A model generated the notes under the pieces. The model was not told the DNA's origin. It saw nothing but the letters and a program-made list of their open reading frames with translations, and searched no databases. Positions 4,107 to 30,426 of a DNA stretch of 33,596 nucleotides are shown here, piece after piece. Position 1 is the first letter of the stretch, and each line of letters begins with the position of its first letter. Source of the stretch: Succiniclasticum ruminis DSM 9236 (GTDB taxonomy: Bacteria; Bacillota; Negativicutes; Acidaminococcales; Acidaminococcaceae); assembly GCF_900112895.1 (NCBI RefSeq), contig NZ_FONL01000019.1, positions 1 to 33,596 on the forward strand. The letters are read 5' to 3'. A program made the position numbers and the translations under genes.

Positions 4107-4166
4107 CAAATTCATAATTAGTTTAACAGCTGTGGAATTTATTTTCCGCGGCTGTTTTGTTATAAT
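4078..4166 (+). repeat. Palindromic repeat copy 2, longest version (terminator plus TATAAT)
   Basis: This is the fullest copy of a recurring element. Its left part (4078-4109) matches 6144-6175 at 27 of 32 bases, all differences being transitions. The central AT-rich spacer resembles those at 7790 and 10680. The palindrome AACAGCTGTGGAA (4125-4137) pairs with TTCCGCGGCTGTT (4144-4156), followed by TTGTTATAAT. The hairpin with T-run fits a rho-independent terminator. The terminal TATAAT (4161-4166) could serve as a -10 box for the gene at 4274. Confidence 0.7.
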
Positions 4167-4273: not shown

Positions 4274-6136
4274 ATGGAAGAAAAGGAACTTGCGGTAAAA
4301 AACTGGCTGGCGCATCTCCGCCGCCACCCCATGCCGGAAATCGTCTCGGAAGAGTGCATGGCCGCGCTCTCGTCAGTGGAGGCGCAGTACGGTGAAACGG
4401 AAAGCTACGGCGCGGGGCTGGAGGTGCGGCTGGGGAATCCCGCGGCGTATGTGGATTACATCATGAATATCGACGAGGAAATCATTCCCAAGGTGAAAGC
4501 GCTGTGGTACGAAATCGACTACGAGGAATTTTCCCGGGCTGCCGCAACGGGCAAACGAATCGAGCCGTGCCTCTTTGCCAATGTGGGTGAGGAAGATTAC
4601 CGGACATTCTGGGATGATGTGCTGCCGCCATTTTTGGGCGAAGAACGGGCGAAACGCCTGCGCGCTCCGCTGGACAGGGTGACGGAGCGTCTCCCCGAAA
4701 AAGCGTTTATCAAGCAAATCGGCACCATGACGAGCCGGGGCGAACTGGACATCATGCGCCTCGTGATTTCGTTTCCTTCCTGGGAGAGCATTTTCCCGGG
4801 CCTGACTGCCATCGGCTGGCAGGGCGATACGGCGGAACTTGCGTCTGCGCTGGAGCCGTGGAAGGAATCTCAGAGAATTGCCGTCAATATCGACCTCGGC
4901 GCGGACGGCGTGCTGCCCAAGATCGGCATCGAAGTCTTTTCACGCTGGCGGCATCCGCTCATCGTCGACAAATTTATCATGCGCCTGGAAGATGCGGGGC
5001 TGTGCCTTCCGGAAAAAGGAGAAGCGCTGCGGCGCTGGATCCGCATCCGCCCCGATGCGGACCCCTTCCGCCAGACGCTGATCAACTATTTCAAGCTGAA
5101 CTACAAGGATGGAAAAATTACCGAAGCAAAAGCCTACCTGGAGCAGACGCCCTATATCAACCACAATTATTTTGACGCCTATGAATTCCCCGGCCGCGTG
5201 GCTTTTTACCTGAGGGACGGGGAGCGGGCGCTTTCCGCGGACAGCGCCCTGCGGCTCCTTGCCCAGTGCGGGGAAAACCGCCTGCGCCGGGCGCGTTTTA
5301 TGGGCGTTGAAGGCTATGAAGAGTTTGACCGCCTTCTGGGCGTGTGCAGGGAATACAGCATCCGTGCGGAAGTATCACTGGCGGAACCGGTATCGCGGGA
5401 AGCGCTGGAACAGATGATTGCCGCGGGAGCAGACAGCTTTCTTATGGATATGGAAGAAGAAACCGGCTGGGCGGCGAATGCGGAAACGCTTCGCGCTTTA
5501 GATTTTGCCGGGTTCCGTCTCCGCTGGTTCATGCACCGGGGCAATGCGCAGGACCTGCCACGCGTCATCCGTCTCGCCGGAGAAACGGGTGCGCAGGAAC
5601 TCATCATCACGGGCATGAAGCCCTGCAGTCCCGGTTTGCGCAGGGAAACTCCTGACCGCGGACAGATTATCGCAGCGGCTGAAATAATAAATGCGTGGCA
5701 AAAAGAGAACCTCCGGAACGGCGAGGCAGCAAACGAAACGCAGGATGGCGAGGTAGCAAACGAAACGGCGGGTACTGACGCAAAAAGCCGCATGGAGCTT
5801 ACGGTAGAAAGCTGCTTTTCGCCGCTGCGCGCCGTGATGGGCGGCGCGGACGAGAAGAGAAACGGCAACCGGGGCATCGGGCGCGGCTGCGAGGCGGGAT
5901 GCTGGTTCTTCGCCGTGCAGGCAGACGGCAGTTTCACGCCTTGCCCGTATCTGGACGCACAGGAAACGTACGGTTCCATTACGGAGTATTGGGAACATTC
6001 ACCCTTGTTGAAAAACATCCGTAAGCAGAGCGGCCATGAAGGCTGCCCCTACGCAAGGCGCTGCCTGCCGTGCTTCGCGGTCATCAAAGAGGTGGGCGAC
6101 TGCCCGTTGCACCCTTTGCATGGGGATCGTCCATGA
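4274..6136 (+). CDS. SPASM-domain protein with a degenerate radical-SAM barrel (candidate peptide maturase)
   Basis: 620 residues. GGAGGT lies 13 bases before the ATG. Residues 1 to about 300 form a domain I cannot name (it contains VNIDLGADGVLPKIGIEVF and a GLCLPEKGEAL-W stretch). Residues ~310-480 read like a radical-SAM barrel: GVEGYEEFDRLL stands where GGEP-type motifs occur, followed by strands such as IRAEVSLAE, ADSFLMDME and AQELIITGMKPCSPG. The CxxxCxxC loop that binds the radical 4Fe-4S cluster is absent; the expected place reads GRVAFYLRDGER. The C-terminus is a cysteine-rich SPASM-type region (GCEAGCWFF, TPCPYL, GCPYARRCLPC, GDCPLH). Family knowledge: SPASM proteins modify ribosomal peptides. 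Nif11-like precursors lie downstream. Inference: an inactive or repurposed barrel acting as a peptide-binding partner. An acidic Glu/Asn/Thr linker (ANETQDGEVANET) separates barrel and SPASM. Confidence 0.75.
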   Translation: MEEKELAVKNWLAHLRRHPMPEIVSEECMAALSSVEAQYGETESYGAGLEVRLGNPAAYVDYIMNIDEEIIPKVKALWYEIDYEEFSRAAATGKRIEPCLFANVGEEDYRTFWDDVLPPFLGEERAKRLRAPLDRVTERLPEKAFIKQIGTMTSRGELDIMRLVISFPSWESIFPGLTAIGWQGDTAELASALEPWKESQRIAVNIDLGADGVLPKIGIEVFSRWRHPLIVDKFIMRLEDAGLCLPEKGEALRRWIRIRPDADPFRQTLINYFKLNYKDGKITEAKAYLEQTPYINHNYFDAYEFPGRVAFYLRDGERALSADSALRLLAQCGENRLRRARFMGVEGYEEFDRLLGVCREYSIRAEVSLAEPVSREALEQMIAAGADSFLMDMEEETGWAANAETLRALDFAGFRLRWFMHRGNAQDLPRVIRLAGETGAQELIITGMKPCSPGLRRETPDRGQIIAAAEIINAWQKENLRNGEAANETQDGEVANETAGTDAKSRMELTVESCFSPLRAVMGGADEKRNGNRGIGRGCEAGCWFFAVQADGSFTPCPYLDAQETYGSITEYWEHSPLLKNIRKQSGHEGCPYARRCLPCFAVIKEVGDCPLHPLHGDRP

Positions 6137-7806: not shown

Positions 7807-7846
7807 AACAGCCGTGGAAGTAATTTTCCGCGGCTGTTTTGTTATA
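7807..7846 (+). terminator. Palindromic repeat copy 3, terminator of the FAD oxidase gene
   Basis: AACAGCCGTGGAA (7807-7819) pairs with TTCCGCGGCTGTT (7826-7838), followed by TTGTTATA. The upstream spacer (GACAATTTTATAATAAGTTC) resembles that of copy 2. It lies 39 bases after the stop codon of the FAD oxidase gene. Confidence 0.75.
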
Positions 7847-9597: not shown

Positions 9598-9837
9598 ATG
9601 CCGGTCAACAGAAACGAAATCACAAAGGAAATGATTGCCAAAGCCCTGCAAAGCAAATCCGCAGAGGAATTGATAGCGCTGGCGAAGAGCGAGGGATTTG
9701 AGCTCACGAAGGACGAGGCTGAGGCGTACATGGCGGAGCTTGCTGATGTGGAACTGGACGGCAGGGAAATGAAGAATGTGGCCGGCGGCACATGCTATAT
9801 GGCGGACGAACCCTGCAAAAAGTACAGCAACAGCTAA
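9598..9837 (+). CDS. Nif11-like leader peptide precursor 1
   Basis: 79 residues with a strong AGGAGG Shine-Dalgarno. Residues 1-64 are a Nif11-type leader: a basic, polar start (MPVNRNEITKEMI), SAEELIALAK, an ELTKDEAEAY helix, AELADVELD and a final VAGG. Leaders ending in GG are normally cut by a C39-type peptidase during export. The predicted core is TCYMADEPCKKYSNS, 15 residues with two cysteines spaced Cys-Tyr-x5-Cys. Precursors 2 and 3 have the same design with different cores. The two cysteines may form a disulfide or a thioether ring; the sequence does not decide. The exported dipeptidase lies upstream and a nucleotidyltransferase-like gene begins 13 bp downstream. Confidence 0.9.
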   Translation: MPVNRNEITKEMIAKALQSKSAEELIALAKSEGFELTKDEAEAYMAELADVELDGREMKNVAGGTCYMADEPCKKYSNS

Positions 9838-9850
9838 CGATTACAAAGTT

Positions 9851-10675
9851 ATGATGGAGAACAGGGAATACAGATTTGCGCGGGAGGACATCGTTACGTT
9901 GCTTTGCGAGGTAGCGTCGCAATATGCCAGACGGAACGCGCCTCCGCTGGACGTGTTGATTTACGGCGGCGCCGCGGTTACTCTCCGGCATGAATTCCGG
10001 ACGGCGGCCCACGACATCGACTATGCGCTCCTGAAGCCGTCACCCCTGTTTGAGGACTGTGTGGAAGACGTTGGAAAAAGGTACAGGCTGCCTCCCTTTT
10101 GGATGCACAGGCTGGATCGATTCACGTTCGCCCCGCGCTTTCGCGATAATTTTTACCGTCATGCCGATGCGCTCCGCCTGAACGCAGAGTCCGGTAATCT
10201 GTCTTTTCTGGTGCAGGACTCTGACTGGCAGCTTGCCAACAAGCTCTGCTGGTTTCGCCGTTACAGGAAAAATGACGGCCGGGACATTGCAGGCATCCTG
10301 CAGGGACGGGATGGTGATGCAGCCAGGCAGGTTTCCCAAAGTGTGCGGGATGTATTTGGCGGGGACGCAACATTTGCTTCCGATGGAACGATGCTGTCGG
10401 ACGCCCTGGAGCAGGGTATAAACCCCGGTGAACTGGCCGCCCGGCTTGACGGGCGCGCCCTGTATTATGAAAAGGTCTATCGCTGGCTGTTTCCCTTATT
10501 GCGCCGGAAAGATGATCCGGCCGCCCGGAACATCTGCTGGGCGGAAAGTCTGTTCTGGAGGACGGAAGGGGACGTCCAAACCACGCTGGCACGGTACGGA
10601 ATCCATCTTTCTCCCGTCATCGTGAACCATATCGCCCGTGTGATGTTCAAACCGGAATTTTGGAGTTTGTTATAG
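9851..10675 (+). CDS. Nucleotidyltransferase-fold protein (DNA polymerase beta-like superfamily)
   Basis: About 274 residues from the ATG at 9851 (a second ATG follows at 9854); an open frame extends upstream into the precursor gene and is not used. The motif LIYGGAAVTLRHEFRTAAHDIDYAL fits the superfamily pattern of a GG pair followed by a D-x-D metal-binding pair. The later LANKLCWFRRYRKNDGRDIAGIL resembles the helical segment of AbiEii/MNT-type relatives. Members transfer nucleotides to proteins, antibiotics or RNA; no substrate can be read here. No clear Shine-Dalgarno is seen, and the 13-bp gap to precursor 1 suggests translational coupling. Possible roles: peptide modification, a toxin-like enzyme, or a passenger. 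Confidence 0.65.
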   Translation: MMENREYRFAREDIVTLLCEVASQYARRNAPPLDVLIYGGAAVTLRHEFRTAAHDIDYALLKPSPLFEDCVEDVGKRYRLPPFWMHRLDRFTFAPRFRDNFYRHADALRLNAESGNLSFLVQDSDWQLANKLCWFRRYRKNDGRDIAGILQGRDGDAARQVSQSVRDVFGGDATFASDGTMLSDALEQGINPGELAARLDGRALYYEKVYRWLFPLLRRKDDPAARNICWAESLFWRTEGDVQTTLARYGIHLSPVIVNHIARVMFKPEFWSLL

Positions 10676-11972: not shown

Positions 11973-12218
11973 ATGCTCATCAACAAAGATGAACTCACAA
12001 AAGAAATGATTGAAAAAGCCATGCAGTGCAAAACCGCGGAAGAGCTGGTTGCGCTGGCAAAGACCGGCGGCTATGAGCTGACTAAGGAAGAGGCTGAATC
12101 GTATCTGGCGGAACTGGCCGACATCGAGCTGGACGGGGAGACCCTGAATAGGGTATCCGGCGGCGCTAAAGTCTGTTACAATGTTTTAAATTGCTGGACC
12201 AAAGTCAGAAATAATTAA
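11973..12218 (+). CDS. Nif11-like leader peptide precursor 2
   Basis: 81 residues. AAGGAAGG precedes the ATG at 11973; an upstream in-frame ATG at 11901 lies inside tag and is rejected. The leader (residues 1-64) is nearly the same as in precursors 1 and 3: NKDELTKEMIEKAMQCK, TAEELVALAK, ELTKEEAESYLAELADIELD, ending VSGG. The predicted core is AKVCYNVLNCWTKVRNN, 17 residues with Cys-Tyr-x4-Cys. It starts 40 bp after tag, may be co-transcribed with it, and is closed by a copy of the palindromic repeat. No maturation enzyme is adjacent. Confidence 0.9.
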   Translation: MLINKDELTKEMIEKAMQCKTAEELVALAKTGGYELTKEEAESYLAELADIELDGETLNRVSGGAKVCYNVLNCWTKVRNN

Positions 12219-13780: not shown

Positions 13781-13996
13781 TAACACAACCATTGTGTAAT
13801 GAAAACGATTACAACAATCGTCGAAGCCCATAATTTCTGATTTCCAAAGCTTTATTAAAGTTTGTCCTGCAATTCTTAACGTAATGACATTGGCGTAGCG
13901 CTTAAAGATTTAATCTTTTCATCTGACGTGTCACAGAGTCCGGTTTTATTAAAAAAACGCGCTGTCATTTACAGGGTGCCGCAAATAAAAAGATTG

Positions 13997-14026
13997 CCAG
14001 GCGTTTCAATGCGCCTGGTGATTTTT
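13997..14026 (+). terminator. Terminator-like hairpin in the leader of ORF6N gene 1
   Basis: CCAGGCG (13997-14003) pairs with CGCCTGG (14012-14018), followed by TGATTTTTT. It lies upstream of the candidate promoter, so it probably shields the gene from read-through. An identical hairpin occurs in unit 2. Confidence 0.6.
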
Positions 14027-14039
14027 TGCGTTAAGAGGC

Positions 14040-14068
14040 TTTTCATTTTCAAAGTTCAGCGTTATAAT
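14040..14068 (+). promoter_or_regulatory. Candidate promoter of ORF6N gene 1
   Basis: TTTTCA (14040-14045), a 17-bp spacer and TATAAT (14063-14068). The -10 box is perfect and conserved in unit 2; the -35 is weak. A small inverted repeat (CGTTATAATAATAGCG) overlaps the -10 box and may be an operator. Confidence 0.45.
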
Positions 14069-14113
14069 AATAGCGAACGTTTGTTTCAAATTTATTATAC
14101 AGGGAGGTTATTT

Positions 14114-15004
14114 ATGGATAATGATTCAGAATTGATATCGCTGGATGCTGGCGAGATCAAACGCCGGATATTTGCCATCCGGGGTAGGCAGGTTATGATG
14201 GACAGTGATTTGGCGGAATACTTTGGTACGACTACCGGTAATTTGAACAGGGCTATGAAGCGTAATATAAAACGCTTTCCTGAATCTTTTTGTTTTCAGC
14301 TTACTGATGATGAAATATTGAGATGCCAAATTGGAATCCCGATGCAAAAACGTGGTATTAAAGGTGGCAGAACATATTTACCCTATGTTTACACAGAGCA
14401 AGGTATTGCCATGCTGACTTCGGTTCTGCATACGGAAAGGGCGATTGCCGCCAGCATTTCAATCATGGAAGCTTTTGTTGAAATGCGCCGCTTCATAGCC
14501 AACAATGCTGCATTGTTTGAGCGGATCAGCAAAGTGGAACTGAAGCAACTGGAAGCGGATAAAAAGTTTGACCGGCTTTTTGAGTATGTAAACACGTGCG
14601 CGGAAACAAACCAGAAACTCTTTTTTGACGGACAGATATATGATGCGTTCAGCCTGCTTATAGAGTTGATACAGAAAGCAGAGCAGGAAATTATCCTGAT
14701 AGACGGATACGTGGATGTGAGCACGCTGAACGTATTAGCGAAGAAAAAAACCGGTGTGGCCGTGACAATTTATACATTCCCAAAGACAAAACTGACAGCG
14801 CAGGACGTAGCCGCCTTTAACGCGCATTACCCGCAGCTGGATGTGAAATACACCAATATATTTCATGACCGTTTTCTGATTTTGTACAGAAAGAAAGTGT
14901 ACCACATTGGGGCTTCATTGAAGGATGCGGGGAAGAAATGTTTTGGCATTACGCTGATGAAGGACGCAGGATCAGAGTTGATGAAAAAGCTTGCGAAGAC
15001 ATGA
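14114..15004 (+). CDS. ORF6N-domain protein with C-terminal PLD-like region, copy 1
   Basis: 296 residues from the ATG at 14114, six bases after AGGGAGG; an open frame further upstream is leader sequence. The N-terminal ORF6N DNA-binding domain, typical of phage and mobile-element proteins, covers about residues 10-95 (RRIFAIRGRQVMMDSDLAEYF ... YLPYVYTEQGIAML). A helical linker (FIANNAALFERISKVELKQL) leads to a C-terminal region resembling one phospholipase-D half-site (DGYVDVSTLNVL ... HDRFLIL ... YHIGASLKDAG). The usual HKD lysine is arginine here (HDR), so catalysis is uncertain. This copy has Tyr (LILYRKK) where copy 2 has Asp (LILDRKT). Its N-terminal half differs from copy 2 and contains RGIKGGRTY. 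Confidence 0.85.
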   Translation: MDNDSELISLDAGEIKRRIFAIRGRQVMMDSDLAEYFGTTTGNLNRAMKRNIKRFPESFCFQLTDDEILRCQIGIPMQKRGIKGGRTYLPYVYTEQGIAMLTSVLHTERAIAASISIMEAFVEMRRFIANNAALFERISKVELKQLEADKKFDRLFEYVNTCAETNQKLFFDGQIYDAFSLLIELIQKAEQEIILIDGYVDVSTLNVLAKKKTGVAVTIYTFPKTKLTAQDVAAFNAHYPQLDVKYTNIFHDRFLILYRKKVYHIGASLKDAGKKCFGITLMKDAGSELMKKLAKT

Positions 15005-15209: not shown

Positions 15210-15253
15210 AATAGCGAACATTTGTTTCGATTCGTTATACAGGAGGGATGTTT

Positions 15254-16141
15254 ATGGAAAATAACACAGAATTGATATCGTTAGATGCTAATGATATCAA
15301 ACGCCGGATATTCACTATACGGGGAAAGCAGGTGATGCTAGACAGTGATTTGGCGGAGCTCTATCAAGTTGAAACTAAGAATTTGAATAAAGCCTCCAAT
15401 CGGAATGTTGAAAGATTTCCGGAAGACTTTAGATTTAAGTTAACAAAAGAGGAGTTTGAGAACTTGAGGTTCCAAACTGGAACCTCAAGTGAAAGTTACG
15501 GTGGACGTAGATACATGCCATATGTTTATACCGAACAGGGTATATCAATGTTAGCCAGTGTGTTAAGAAGTAAAATTGCAATTCAGGTGAGCATTAATAT
15601 TATGCGGACTTTTATTGAAATGCGCCACTTCATAGCCAACAATGCCGCATTGTTTGAGCGGATCAGCAAAGTGGAATTGAAGCAACTGGAAGCAGATAAA
15701 AAGTTTGACCAGCTTTTTGAGTATGTAAACACGCACGCGGAAACAAACCAGAAACTCTTTTTTGACGGACAGATATATGATGCGTTCAGCCTGCTTATAG
15801 AGTTGATACAGAAAGCAGAGCAGGAAATTATCCTGGTAGACGGATACGTGGATGTGAGCACGCTGAACGTATTAGCGAAGAAAAAATCCGGTGTGGCCGT
15901 GACAATTTATACATTCTCAAAGACAAAACTAACAGCGCAGGACGTAGCCGCCTTTAACGCGCAGTACCCGCAACTGGATGTGAAATACACCAATATATTT
16001 CATGATCGTTTTCTGATCTTGGACAGAAAGACCGTGTACCACATTGGGGCTTCACTGAAAGATGCGGGGAAGAAATGCTTTGGCATTACACTGATGAAGG
16101 ATGCGGGATCAGAGTTGATGAAAAAACTGACGAAGACATGA
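15254..16141 (+). CDS. ORF6N-domain protein with C-terminal PLD-like region, copy 2
   Basis: 295 residues. An ATG at 15248 directly abuts AGGAGGG, so the ATG at 15254 (spacing six, as in copy 1) is chosen. The N-terminal ORF6N domain shows RRIFTIRGKQVMLDSDLAEL ... NLNKASNRNVERFPEDFRF ... YMPYVYTEQGISML. From FIANNAALFERISKVELKQL onward it is almost identical to copy 1 down to the DNA level, with the same PLD-like region (HDRFLILDRKTVYHIGAS). The contrast of a variable DNA-binding half with a fixed C-terminal half points to domain exchange or gene conversion. The biological role is unknown; such genes are usual in phages and mobile islands. Confidence 0.85.
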   Translation: MENNTELISLDANDIKRRIFTIRGKQVMLDSDLAELYQVETKNLNKASNRNVERFPEDFRFKLTKEEFENLRFQTGTSSESYGGRRYMPYVYTEQGISMLASVLRSKIAIQVSINIMRTFIEMRHFIANNAALFERISKVELKQLEADKKFDQLFEYVNTHAETNQKLFFDGQIYDAFSLLIELIQKAEQEIILVDGYVDVSTLNVLAKKKSGVAVTIYTFSKTKLTAQDVAAFNAQYPQLDVKYTNIFHDRFLILDRKTVYHIGASLKDAGKKCFGITLMKDAGSELMKKLTKT

Positions 16142-28896: not shown

Positions 28897-29874
28897 ATGC
28901 CGATCAACAAAAATGAACTCACGATGGAACAGGTGAGGAAGGCATTGTCCGGCTTTTCCGTTTGTTTGCTGCTGTTTCTTTTGTGTGGATCATCCGCGTT
29001 GGCGGCGGAGATCTTCAGGGAGACCGTTCCCCTGGAGCGGAACCGTGTGCTGTTGCATCTGGAACGGTACGTAGAGAAGGACGGTAAGAGGAAGCAGCCC
29101 CTCCTGCTCGTGCATGGGGTAACCTATTCGTCCCATGAGTTCGATGTGGATTATAAAGATTACAGCCTGGCGCGCTATTTCGCCGGGCACGGGTTTGAAG
29201 TCTGGCTGCTGGATATTGCAGGGTTTGGCAATTCCGGCAGTATCGGGGACGGCTTCCGGCCGGATTCCGATTACGCGGCGGAAGACATCGCGGCGGCTGT
29301 GCGGTGTATCATGCGGCGCAGCCGGGTTTCCTTCGTGGATGTGCTGGGGTGGAGCTGGGGAACCGTGACAAGCGGGCGTTTTGCGGCGCGTCATCCCGAA
29401 ATGGTGCGCAGGCTTGTGCTCTACGCCCCGATTGTGGCAGGGCTTGGGGAGCAGCCGGTGGCTGAACCCTTCCATACGAATACATGGATGCACGCGGCGG
29501 AGGATTTCCAGACCGCTCCGGACGGCGGCATTGATTTCCGCATTGTGGAAAGGCCTGTGGCGGACACGTTTCTTTCCAACGCCTGGCGCAATGACAAAAC
29601 GTCCAGCCCTAACGGCGGCCGGAGGGATTTACTGGTAAGCCCGGATACAAGGCTGATTCCCACGGCGGACATCAAAGTTCCGACGCTCATCATCGTCGGT
29701 TCCAAAGATCCCTATGTATCCCCGGCGTTATGCGAAGAGGCGTATAAAACGCTGCCGGACAGGAATTCCCGTCTGGAGATCATAGAGGGCGGGGGTCACG
29801 CGATGCTCATGGAGCGGCCCTATTACAGGAAGTTCCGTGCAAAGGTCAGGGCCTTCCTCTCTTCTGTAAACTAA
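28897..29874 (+). CDS. Exported alpha/beta hydrolase with a Nif11-leader-like N-terminus
   Basis: 325 residues. AAGGAGA lies eight bases before ATG. The first residues MPINKNELTMEQVRKAL match the Nif11-type leaders (compare MPIKPNELTKEMVMKAM), and the DNA around the start matches too. From residue ~19 it becomes a signal peptide (FSVCLLLFLLCGSSALAAE). The alpha/beta-hydrolase body has LLLVHGVTYSSHEF (oxyanion region), GWSWGT with the nucleophile Ser, SKDPYVSP with the acid and GGGHAMLMER with the His. A GTG at 28933 would give a normal signal peptide without the leader part. The gene looks like a join of a precursor gene's 5' end to a hydrolase gene. Substrate unknown. Confidence 0.85.
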   Translation: MPINKNELTMEQVRKALSGFSVCLLLFLLCGSSALAAEIFRETVPLERNRVLLHLERYVEKDGKRKQPLLLVHGVTYSSHEFDVDYKDYSLARYFAGHGFEVWLLDIAGFGNSGSIGDGFRPDSDYAAEDIAAAVRCIMRRSRVSFVDVLGWSWGTVTSGRFAARHPEMVRRLVLYAPIVAGLGEQPVAEPFHTNTWMHAAEDFQTAPDGGIDFRIVERPVADTFLSNAWRNDKTSSPNGGRRDLLVSPDTRLIPTADIKVPTLIIVGSKDPYVSPALCEEAYKTLPDRNSRLEIIEGGGHAMLMERPYYRKFRAKVRAFLSSVN

Positions 29875-30084: not shown

Positions 30085-30333
30085 ATGCCAATTAAACCGA
30101 ACGAACTGACAAAAGAAATGGTCATGAAAGCCATGCAGTGCAAGGATGCCGATGAACTGATCGCGCTGGCAAAGAGCGGCGGCATCGAACTGACGAAGGA
30201 AGAGGCCGAAACCTATTTGGCGGAGCTGGCTGATTTCGAATTGGACGGCGACAACCTGAAAAAAATCGCCGGCGGCATTTTCGAATGCTACATGAGAAAT
30301 GACTGCATGTATGCCTTTGACGATTGGAAATAA
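30085..30333 (+). CDS. Nif11-like leader peptide precursor 3
   Basis: 82 residues, AAAGGAGG before the ATG. The leader (1-64) is almost the same as in precursors 1 and 2: NELTKEMVMKAMQCK, ADELIALAK, ELTKEEAETYLAELADFELD, final IAGG. The predicted core IFECYMRNDCMYAFDDWK has 18 residues and Cys-Tyr-x4-Cys. It lies alone between the hydrolase with the leader-like start and a cation ATPase, and is closed by a copy of the palindromic repeat. No maturation enzyme or transporter is adjacent. Confidence 0.9.
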   Translation: MPIKPNELTKEMVMKAMQCKDADELIALAKSGGIELTKEEAETYLAELADFELDGDNLKKIAGGIFECYMRNDCMYAFDDWK

Positions 30334-30385: not shown

Positions 30386-30426
30386 AAAGCCGTGGAATTT
30401 ATTTTCCGCGGCTTTTTTGTTATAAT
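30386..30426 (+). terminator. Palindromic repeat copy 6, terminator of precursor 3
   Basis: AAAGCCGTGGAA (30386-30397) pairs with TTCCGCGGCTTT (30404-30415), followed by TTTGTTATAAT. The first arm base pair differs from other copies in a compensated way (AAAG/CTTT). The final TATAAT (30421-30426) could start the ATPase transcript. Confidence 0.75.

Follow-up and report, generated by a model that had tools for sequence, protein, structure and literature searches.

The gene addressed here lies at positions 4274–6136 of a 33,596-nucleotide stretch of DNA from Succiniclasticum ruminis DSM 9236 (contig NZ_FONL01000019.1; this whole stretch is hereafter called the window). Among its closest known counterparts is MppC, an ABBA prenyltransferase from a cyanobacterial lanthipeptide cluster, which geranylates a Trp of the core peptide and needs a Nif11-like leader (PMC12715784). 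The protein encoded in the window resembles MppC in that an ABBA-type prenyltransferase is tied to a Nif11-like leader, with an aromatic residue of the core as likely acceptor. Compared by description, the two differ, as the parts of that publication relied upon here present MppC as a soluble prenyltransferase and mention no radical S-adenosylmethionine (radical-SAM) half (PMC12715784).

Counterparts also exist for each half. The CymD/DMATS-type indole prenyltransferases display the same fold as residues 3–295, but no sequence similarity to them was found in searches of solved structures, and the Trp_DMAT model remained unmatched. These enzymes use small-molecule acceptors and are not known to carry a C-terminal radical-SAM half. 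PqqE and SuiB share the fold of residues 300–613 and the SPASM cysteines, whereas the protein of the window is devoid of their CxxxCxxC loop. The NCBIfam family TIGR04347, "pseudo-SAM/SPASM", is by its name another radical-SAM-like pseudo-SAM group; it is likewise not known to carry the CxxxCxxC motif, does not match the protein of the window and, to our knowledge, includes no prenyltransferase fusion. Radical-SAM pseudoproteins, SPASM domains and prenyltransferases of ribosomally synthesized and post-translationally modified peptides (RiPPs) are each already known kinds; neither their combination in one protein nor the present prenyltransferase family is described among the matches listed in a search of titles and abstract starts of open-licence PMC articles.

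Computational analysis finds in this protein two folds, the loss of the motif loop and a gene fusion. The best explanation as a whole, to which we assign a probability of about 0.7, is that an ABBA-type prenyltransferase is fused to a dead radical-SAM/SPASM module and acts on the cores of Nif11-leader peptides.

A conserved fusion protein

Fusion homologues were found at 33 loci in named records by a scan using one genome per species. The record titles mention Selenomonas, Schwartzia, Succiniclasticum, Acidaminococcaceae, Selenomonadaceae or Selenomonadales, Clostridiales, Lachnospiraceae and Spirochaetia. These are mostly metagenome-assembled genomes (MAGs), many titles referring to rumen, reticulum or other ruminant-gut samples, and Selenomonas ruminantium strain HD4 is one of the 33. 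In 59 genomes of the family, the fusion is carried by 8, all belonging to one genus. The genome of S. ruminis DSM 9236 itself encodes one paralog, on contig C18 (57% identity). No relative was detected among viral contigs by a pattern scan, and the protein has no PHROGs match.

Of 36 homologous open reading frames (ORFs), those at L035:2581, L035:4739 and L039, which are short or incomplete, do not enter the alignment of 35 rows. Domain statistics concern 33 of the 35 rows, window copy and paralog included, the two rows without a C-terminal half being omitted; some of these rows are near-identical, and a few loci share a genome or repeat genomes of other sets (e.g. L019, L003). Mean identity to the window copy is 0.68 for the N-terminal half, 0.56 for the SPASM domain and 0.40 for the barrel. 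Invariant columns are 3 of 202 in the barrel and 13 of 108 in the SPASM domain. The length of the barrel varies from 125 to 232 residues, having shrunk to 125–126 in three Spirochaetia copies. The ratio of nonsynonymous to synonymous substitution rates (dN/dS), computed for five pairs (three with the window copy, two with the paralog), is below 1 for all three domains (0.05–0.76, the top value being based on few changes and dS being saturated for the window-paralog pair), with its minimum in the prenyltransferase half in 5/5 pairs. Since the architecture is shared by 33 rows, it is not a chance feature.

A radical-SAM/SPASM fold devoid of its cluster motif

The AlphaFold2 (AF2) model of the protein, built from 35 sequences, has a predicted local distance difference test score (pLDDT) of 85.1 and a predicted template modelling score (pTM) of 0.82. 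When this predicted structure is compared by VIA, residues 300–613 correspond to a radical-SAM/SPASM fold, matching PqqE (6c8v; Z 21.3, root-mean-square deviation (rmsd) 3.3, 257 aligned residues) and SuiB (5v1q; Z 20.2). The best 50 Foldseek matches listed for the PDB are radical-SAM and other barrel enzymes, and those to viral models bear mostly radical-SAM names, several rows being unnamed. A preliminary description, made from the letters alone, had read the middle of the protein as the later strands of a radical-SAM barrel and had proposed to model both halves; the predicted structure agrees, giving a barrel without cluster motif at 300–613 and a prenyltransferase (PT) barrel at 3–295.

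The same description had reported that CxxxCxxC was absent. Indeed, the motif occurs neither in the 620 residues of the protein nor in the barrel of any fused row whose C-terminal half is complete (33 rows), and the sole CxxxCxxC string of the 35-row alignment (L022:2398-4203) is located inside the SPASM domain. As the barrel lacks the motif in all 33 rows, the loss is fixed rather than the result of a local mutation or error.

SPASM domains are characterized by the cysteine pattern C-..-Gx4C ... CxxCx5CxxC ... C. In the fused rows, C514, C539, C557, C591, C597 and C600 are kept in 33/33 and C610 in 30/33. The CxxC-x5-C-xx-C segment is complete in 29/33 and broken in the window copy and three close relatives, His588 of the window copy standing at the position of the first Cys of the family CxxC. 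Most of the auxiliary-cluster cysteines, noticed earlier as SPASM-like, are kept. Library hidden Markov models (HMMs) recognize the SPASM end only weakly, with faint signs of radical-SAM besides: Pfam SPASM (PF13186) gives 12.4 bits over residues 539–597 (cut-off 21.5), TIGR04085 gives 12.6 bits (cut-off 27) and the NCBIfam NirJ2 model matches residues 532–600 with an E-value of 1.7e-4. The SPASM likeness is real, though weak by library HMM, and residues 305–620 are most likely a radical-SAM/SPASM protein that has lost its radical chemistry.

An ABBA-type prenyltransferase fold in the N-terminal half

The N-terminal domain of about 300 residues, to which the preliminary description gave no name, is also real; no other part of the protein is so well conserved, and its predicted fold is of ABBA/DMATS type. 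In VIA comparisons of the predicted structure, residues 3–295 match CymD (6os3) with a Z of 16.2 (266 aligned residues, rmsd 4.1), FunA (15.3), DMATS1 (15.2) and FgaPT2 (14.8), as well as CdpNPT and PriB. Foldseek searches of viral models returned no match named prenyltransferase, though several rows are unnamed, and sequence searches of this half against solved structures gave no meaningful match. Weak Pfam matches of this half and of standalone relatives to TelK_muzzle, DUF7650 and OB_MEIOB_N were judged to be noise.

These standalone relatives, of about 340–390 residues, occur in 4 fusion loci out of 33 and, at the level of the order, in 5 genomes out of 63. A profile comparison between nine standalone rows and the N-terminal half gave a probability of 95.5 and an E-value of 1.5e-8; three relatives in L054–L056, with modest E-values (2e-6 to 5e-5), were retained in the row set. 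The model of the standalone family (pLDDT 84.9, pTM 0.86) has prenyltransferases, by title, as all of its best 50 structure matches listed, LimF included. Its profile matches one solved structure, that of the indole prenyltransferase NotF, with an E-value of 1.2, which is suggestive at most. In the same genus, one genome also contains a tandem of two ABBA-like prenyltransferase genes that stand alone (L052:452-2562, minus strand).

According to the parts of the TleC publication relied upon here, indole prenyltransferases work with a catalytic Glu, basic ligands of the diphosphate and tyrosines, which in TleC are E106, then R119, K187, R248 and R378, and Y252, Y317 and Y382 (PMC4786772). Among 50 prenyltransferase rows (fused, unfused, standalone and cyanobacterial copies), D82, R155, R162, K274, K286 and Y288 are each retained in 49 rows; the count is 46 for E50, D61 and D207, and at E50 and D61 the four exceptions are gaps ascribed to the trimmed starts of four unfused rows. 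E50, D61, R162, K274, K286 and Y288 are putative catalytic residues, whose individual roles are inferred.

The N-terminal half belongs to a putative prenyltransferase family that matches no library model used here. Given its ABBA-type fold, the protein is most likely a prenyltransferase bearing a dead radical-SAM module.

From neighbouring genes to a fused protein

A profile search of 398 genomes of the phylum revealed distant prenyltransferases in two genomes besides that of S. ruminis. In one of them (G325), an intact radical-SAM/SPASM gene is preceded, at a distance of about 75 bp, by the prenyltransferase gene, the two being arranged like the fused halves. The radical-SAM/SPASM enzyme carries an intact CPLRCPQC, and a Nif11-like peptide and NHLM-type transporters, recognized by eye, are encoded alongside. 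The C-terminal half of the window protein aligns with this enzyme (E 1e-23, 26% identity) from a point just past its motif, and the N-terminal half aligns with the neighbouring prenyltransferase (E 8e-19).

The prenyltransferase was found in 7 of 63 genomes of the class of G325, that genome included. Six of these, together with a genome from elsewhere in the phylum (G089), constitute the unfused set, G504 with its two partial matches being omitted. In 7/7 genomes the pair is co-stranded and the motif unbroken, reading CPLRCPQC in six and CPLRCSQC in the seventh; in the six besides G325, the two genes follow the same order within 3 kb. Both products are homologous to the halves of the fusion protein, and leader peptides ending in VAGG (Nif11 by eye) are encoded in the same loci (L093, L094, L103–L107). 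The unfused pairs differ in consisting of two genes, in their intact motif and in an extra N-terminal region of about 90 residues in the radical-SAM protein.

When nine fused rows are aligned with the seven unfused ones, exactly 13–14 residues covering CPLRC(P/S)QC are missing from the former, some of which retain a degraded GGE where unfused relatives have GGET(L) after the motif. In a tree, the fused rows form one group (97/99) separate from the unfused ones (100/95), with long-branch warnings. The existence of intact unfused pairs and the exact gap in fused rows imply fusion followed by decay rather than a local error. Most simply, judging from these alignments, neighbouring genes would have fused in the same order, after which the motif loop would have been lost; the three Spirochaetia copies have undergone further barrel loss beyond this loop. 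The preliminary description had regarded homologues with an intact CxxxCxxC at this place as a sign of local mutation or sequencing error; such homologues do exist, solely among unfused relatives outside the class to which S. ruminis belongs, and no fused row is one of them.

Genomic surroundings and the Nif11 link

The fusion family resides in RiPP clusters of Nif11/NHLM type that also encode another radical-SAM/SPASM enzyme, an intact one, and the paralog of S. ruminis is a member of such a cluster. It closes a co-directional run (L085) that encodes a DUF7005 protein, a radical-SAM/SPASM enzyme, a Nif11 peptide, a B12-type radical-SAM methyltransferase, two membrane-fusion adaptors, two NHLM-type ATP-binding cassette (ABC) transporters and the fusion protein; these genes were named from tested relatives, except for the first transporter and one adaptor, named by eye. 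In the 33 fusion loci, many of them on short contigs, a custom profile detects a Nif11-type peptide in 19. A radical-SAM protein is encoded in 14 loci, those of L024 and L041 resembling other radical-SAM types, and 13 encode an ABC transporter from a single cluster that has an NHLM-type member.

The preliminary description had suggested looking for co-occurrence with Nif11 leaders, and this co-occurrence was found. Among the 59 genomes of the family, 8 carry the fusion, 10 carry Nif11 leaders and 7 carry the partner radical-SAM protein (E <1e-60), as nested sets: the 7 are included in the 8, and all 8 in the 10. The partner is therefore found in 7/8 fusion genomes versus 0/51 others, and in the eighth (G056) a fragment of it (L051:2-283) lies where a contig ends. 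For the 14 genomes of the genus alone, the split is 7/8 versus 0/6, with a chance of 8/3432 by a hand count that does not allow for relatedness. The genome of S. ruminis DSM 9236 yields 23 Nif11-type hits. An in-frame TGA seen in some hits of the partner was considered as a recoding signal and dropped, the C37 copy being an open frame of 544 codons without it.

Other genes of these RiPP clusters were observed. DUF7005 is recurrent (L049:7375-8268, L050:4992-5855, L085:1270-2157, L105:9777-10919), being identified by PF22541 in L049 and L105 and by clustering or eye in L050 and L085. The L049 and L050 copies contain an HExxH-like motif (HECAHYE), and the L050 copy has a Nif11-leader-like start; DUF7005 is a candidate leader protease. 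In a Spirochaetia MAG, L050:7626-8417 (minus strand) encodes in one frame a Nif11 leader (43.5 bits) followed by a HINT/intein-like domain, the intein link being a weak NF038136 match (E 3e-5), and this protein is possibly a self-processing precursor.

Candidate substrates

Trp or Tyr is present in 48 of 50 distinct Nif11 cores, and adjoins a Cys in 30, versus 17.3 +/- 3.1 in shuffles of each core, none of 5000 being as high; the cores were collected by a permissive regular expression, a few of their frames being doubtful. Near the unfused pairs, Trp is the last residue in 15 of the 24 peptides with a leader; these were found by regular expression without a Nif11 HMM and include other leader types. 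Aromatic-rich cores and Trp-ending peptides would suit an aromatic prenyltransferase. It can also be mentioned that L103–L107 encode Nif11-like and nitrile-hydratase-like leaders (by eye), many with cores ending in RW or KW, and that L105 contains, beside its unfused pair, a radical-SAM/SPASM enzyme bearing tetratricopeptide repeats and a peptide-arginase-like gene (UPF0489, 52.5 bits, over the cut-off; NF052474, 281 bits, below the cut-off of 350).

A cyanobacterial relative of the N-terminal half (26% identity over residues 70–297, E 2e-6) is encoded by a plasmid of Pseudanabaena galeata (L088:7668-9461). Its prenyltransferase domain is fused to a 2-oxoglutarate-Fe(II) oxygenase, making it a second kind of prenyltransferase fusion, and its gene adjoins a LanM gene and two Nif11 genes.

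Proposed function and alternative explanations

On the basis of sequence, modelling and analogy with known enzymes, the protein probably prenylates Nif11 peptide cores. Its prenyltransferase half would move an isoprenyl group, from dimethylallyl diphosphate (DMAPP) or geranyl diphosphate (GPP), onto Trp or Tyr of these cores. The pseudo-radical-SAM/SPASM half, probably still with auxiliary iron-sulfur (Fe-S) clusters, would act as a scaffold for docking, presenting to the prenyltransferase either the leader or an already cross-linked core, and would have been retained in this capacity once the catalytic cluster was gone; for this scaffold role we would offer only even odds. The window copy is a stand-alone paralog of the C18 operon copy and would have, among the 23 Nif11-type hits, some that it modifies in trans.

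Several points weigh against this explanation. The best 50 Foldseek matches listed include no ABBA enzyme, so that the prenyltransferase match of the fusion protein comes from VIA; prenyltransferase models of Pfam and NCBIfam do not match the N-terminal half; Trp_DMAT (PF11991) gives nothing at E-values up to 10 in the genome, window protein included; and an earlier profile comparison with four standalone rows was weak (probability 0.8, E 0.074). The putative catalytic positions were assigned by conservation and strand order, without superposition on a solved active site. In G089 (L094:4927-6239, minus strand), the prenyltransferase frame is cut short and its end seems to continue in another frame, through damage to the gene or an error of assembly. 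One SPASM cysteine is missing from the window copy, which is located apart from any RiPP cluster, with its closest Nif11 gene some 3.5 kb downstream. In two genomes of the genus, Nif11 leaders occur without fusion or partner. Finally, cores with an aromatic residue next to Cys would equally suit radical-SAM cross-linking enzymes.

The alternative that survives best, although unlikely, is a radical-SAM pseudoenzyme serving as a chaperone or carrier of Nif11 peptides for a true maturase, with a PT-barrel that only binds. It would account for the co-occurrence with the partner radical-SAM protein, for the retention of most SPASM cysteines and for the failure of any HMM to name the N-terminal half a prenyltransferase. 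However, that half is the best conserved, has the lowest dN/dS in every pair and shares its set of charged and Tyr residues with standalone copies, which would be unexpected for a dead barrel. The preliminary description had considered a chaperone or partner of the Nif11 peptides, or else catalysis by the N-terminal domain: the radical-SAM pseudoenzyme and the Nif11 link stand and catalysis by the N-terminal domain is plausible, but the ABBA-type fold of this domain displaces the chaperone as principal interpretation.

Somewhat less probable still is a prenyltransferase acting on a free small aromatic, such as Trp in the case of CymD, instead of a Nif11 peptide. Although the closest structural matches are indeed enzymes of free Trp or indoles and the window copy has no adjoining Nif11 gene, members of the family sit in Nif11/NHLM-type clusters, the cyanobacterial relative adjoins LanM and Nif11 leaders, and a terminal Trp is found in most peptides encoded near the unfused pairs.

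It is very improbable that the radical-SAM half remains a radical enzyme, through another set of cysteines or a cluster lent by a partner. The barrel fold is preserved and six SPASM cysteines are kept in 33/33 rows, but the whole motif loop is gone from the nine aligned fused rows and no motif is found in the others; furthermore, so few invariant barrel columns, and three barrels as short as 125–126 residues, fit poorly with a conserved SAM site. A local mutation, assembly error or pseudogene, for which only the loss in the window copy of a SPASM cysteine present in 29/33 rows could speak, can be dismissed, as the motif is absent from 33/33 checkable rows from many assemblies, S. ruminantium HD4 included, the frame is open with dN/dS below 1 in all domains, and the unfused relatives aligned with nine of these rows have the motif intact.

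Other features of the window

Positions of the fusion gene, its domains and the Nif11-like genes are collected in Table 1.

Table 1. Location of the fusion gene, its parts and the Nif11-like leader peptide genes in the window
Feature	Positions	Strand	Basis and remarks
Prenyltransferase/pseudo-radical-SAM-SPASM fusion gene (predicted)	4274..6136	+	ORF, ATG start, 620 aa (amino acids)
ABBA (PT-barrel) aromatic prenyltransferase fold	4274..5185	+	Residues 1-304; AF2 model and VIA
Degenerate radical-SAM barrel and variable linker	5186..5788	+	Residues 305-505; fold, conservation, alignment with unfused relatives
Site of the missing motif loop	5210..5227	+	About residues 313-318; 9 fused rows aligned with 7 unfused ones
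SPASM-type domain	5789..6112	+	Residues 506-613
Nif11-like leader peptide, core TCYMADEPCKKYSNS	9598..9837	+	TIGR03798 33.6 bits (cut-off 32.3); possible substrate, not adjacent
Nif11-like leader peptide, core AKVCYNVLNCWTKVRNN	11973..12218	+	TIGR03798 32.2 bits (cut-off 32.3); possible substrate, not adjacent
Nif11-like leader peptide, core IFECYMRNDCMYAFDDWK	30085..30333	+	TIGR03798 28.3 bits (below cut-off); possible substrate, not adjacent

The end of the first Nif11 gene is overlapped by a nucleotidyltransferase-like gene (9776-10675; DUF6036, E 0.015, below the cut-off), and proteins similar-looking to its product adjoin Nif11 genes in L036 and L050. An alpha/beta-hydrolase-like protein, recognized by eye (28897-29874), has a Nif11-leader-like start, MPINKNELTMEQVRKAL, that precedes a signal-like segment. 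A 26-base palindromic intergenic element is present in three copies (4129-4154, 7811-7836 and 30389-30414; at most 3 mismatches, 0 expected), the first of which resembles a terminator. A promoter scan near the fusion gene gave 1 match versus 1.5 expected. Two ORF6N/Bro-like genes, named by eye, lie in tandem (13928-15004 and 15248-16141), with almost identical C-terminal halves.

Significance

The fusion protein probably modifies small secreted peptides. Its history and role may be summarized by a scenario whose chances we put at one in two: a maturase fused to its ABBA neighbour, lost its cluster loop and became the peptide-guiding module, possibly still Fe-S-bearing, of a new family of peptide prenyltransferases for Nif11 RiPPs of ruminant gut bacteria. 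As the intact unfused pair survives elsewhere, this loss can be followed, and one can directly test the loss itself, how it affects the product and what auxiliary Fe-S clusters do when no radical cluster is present. If the proposed function is correct, gut bacteria rich in possible substrate peptides would harbour a prenyltransferase family unrecognized by the Pfam and NCBIfam models searched, and this protein would be a clear example of a radical-SAM enzyme that has become a non-catalytic module of another enzyme.

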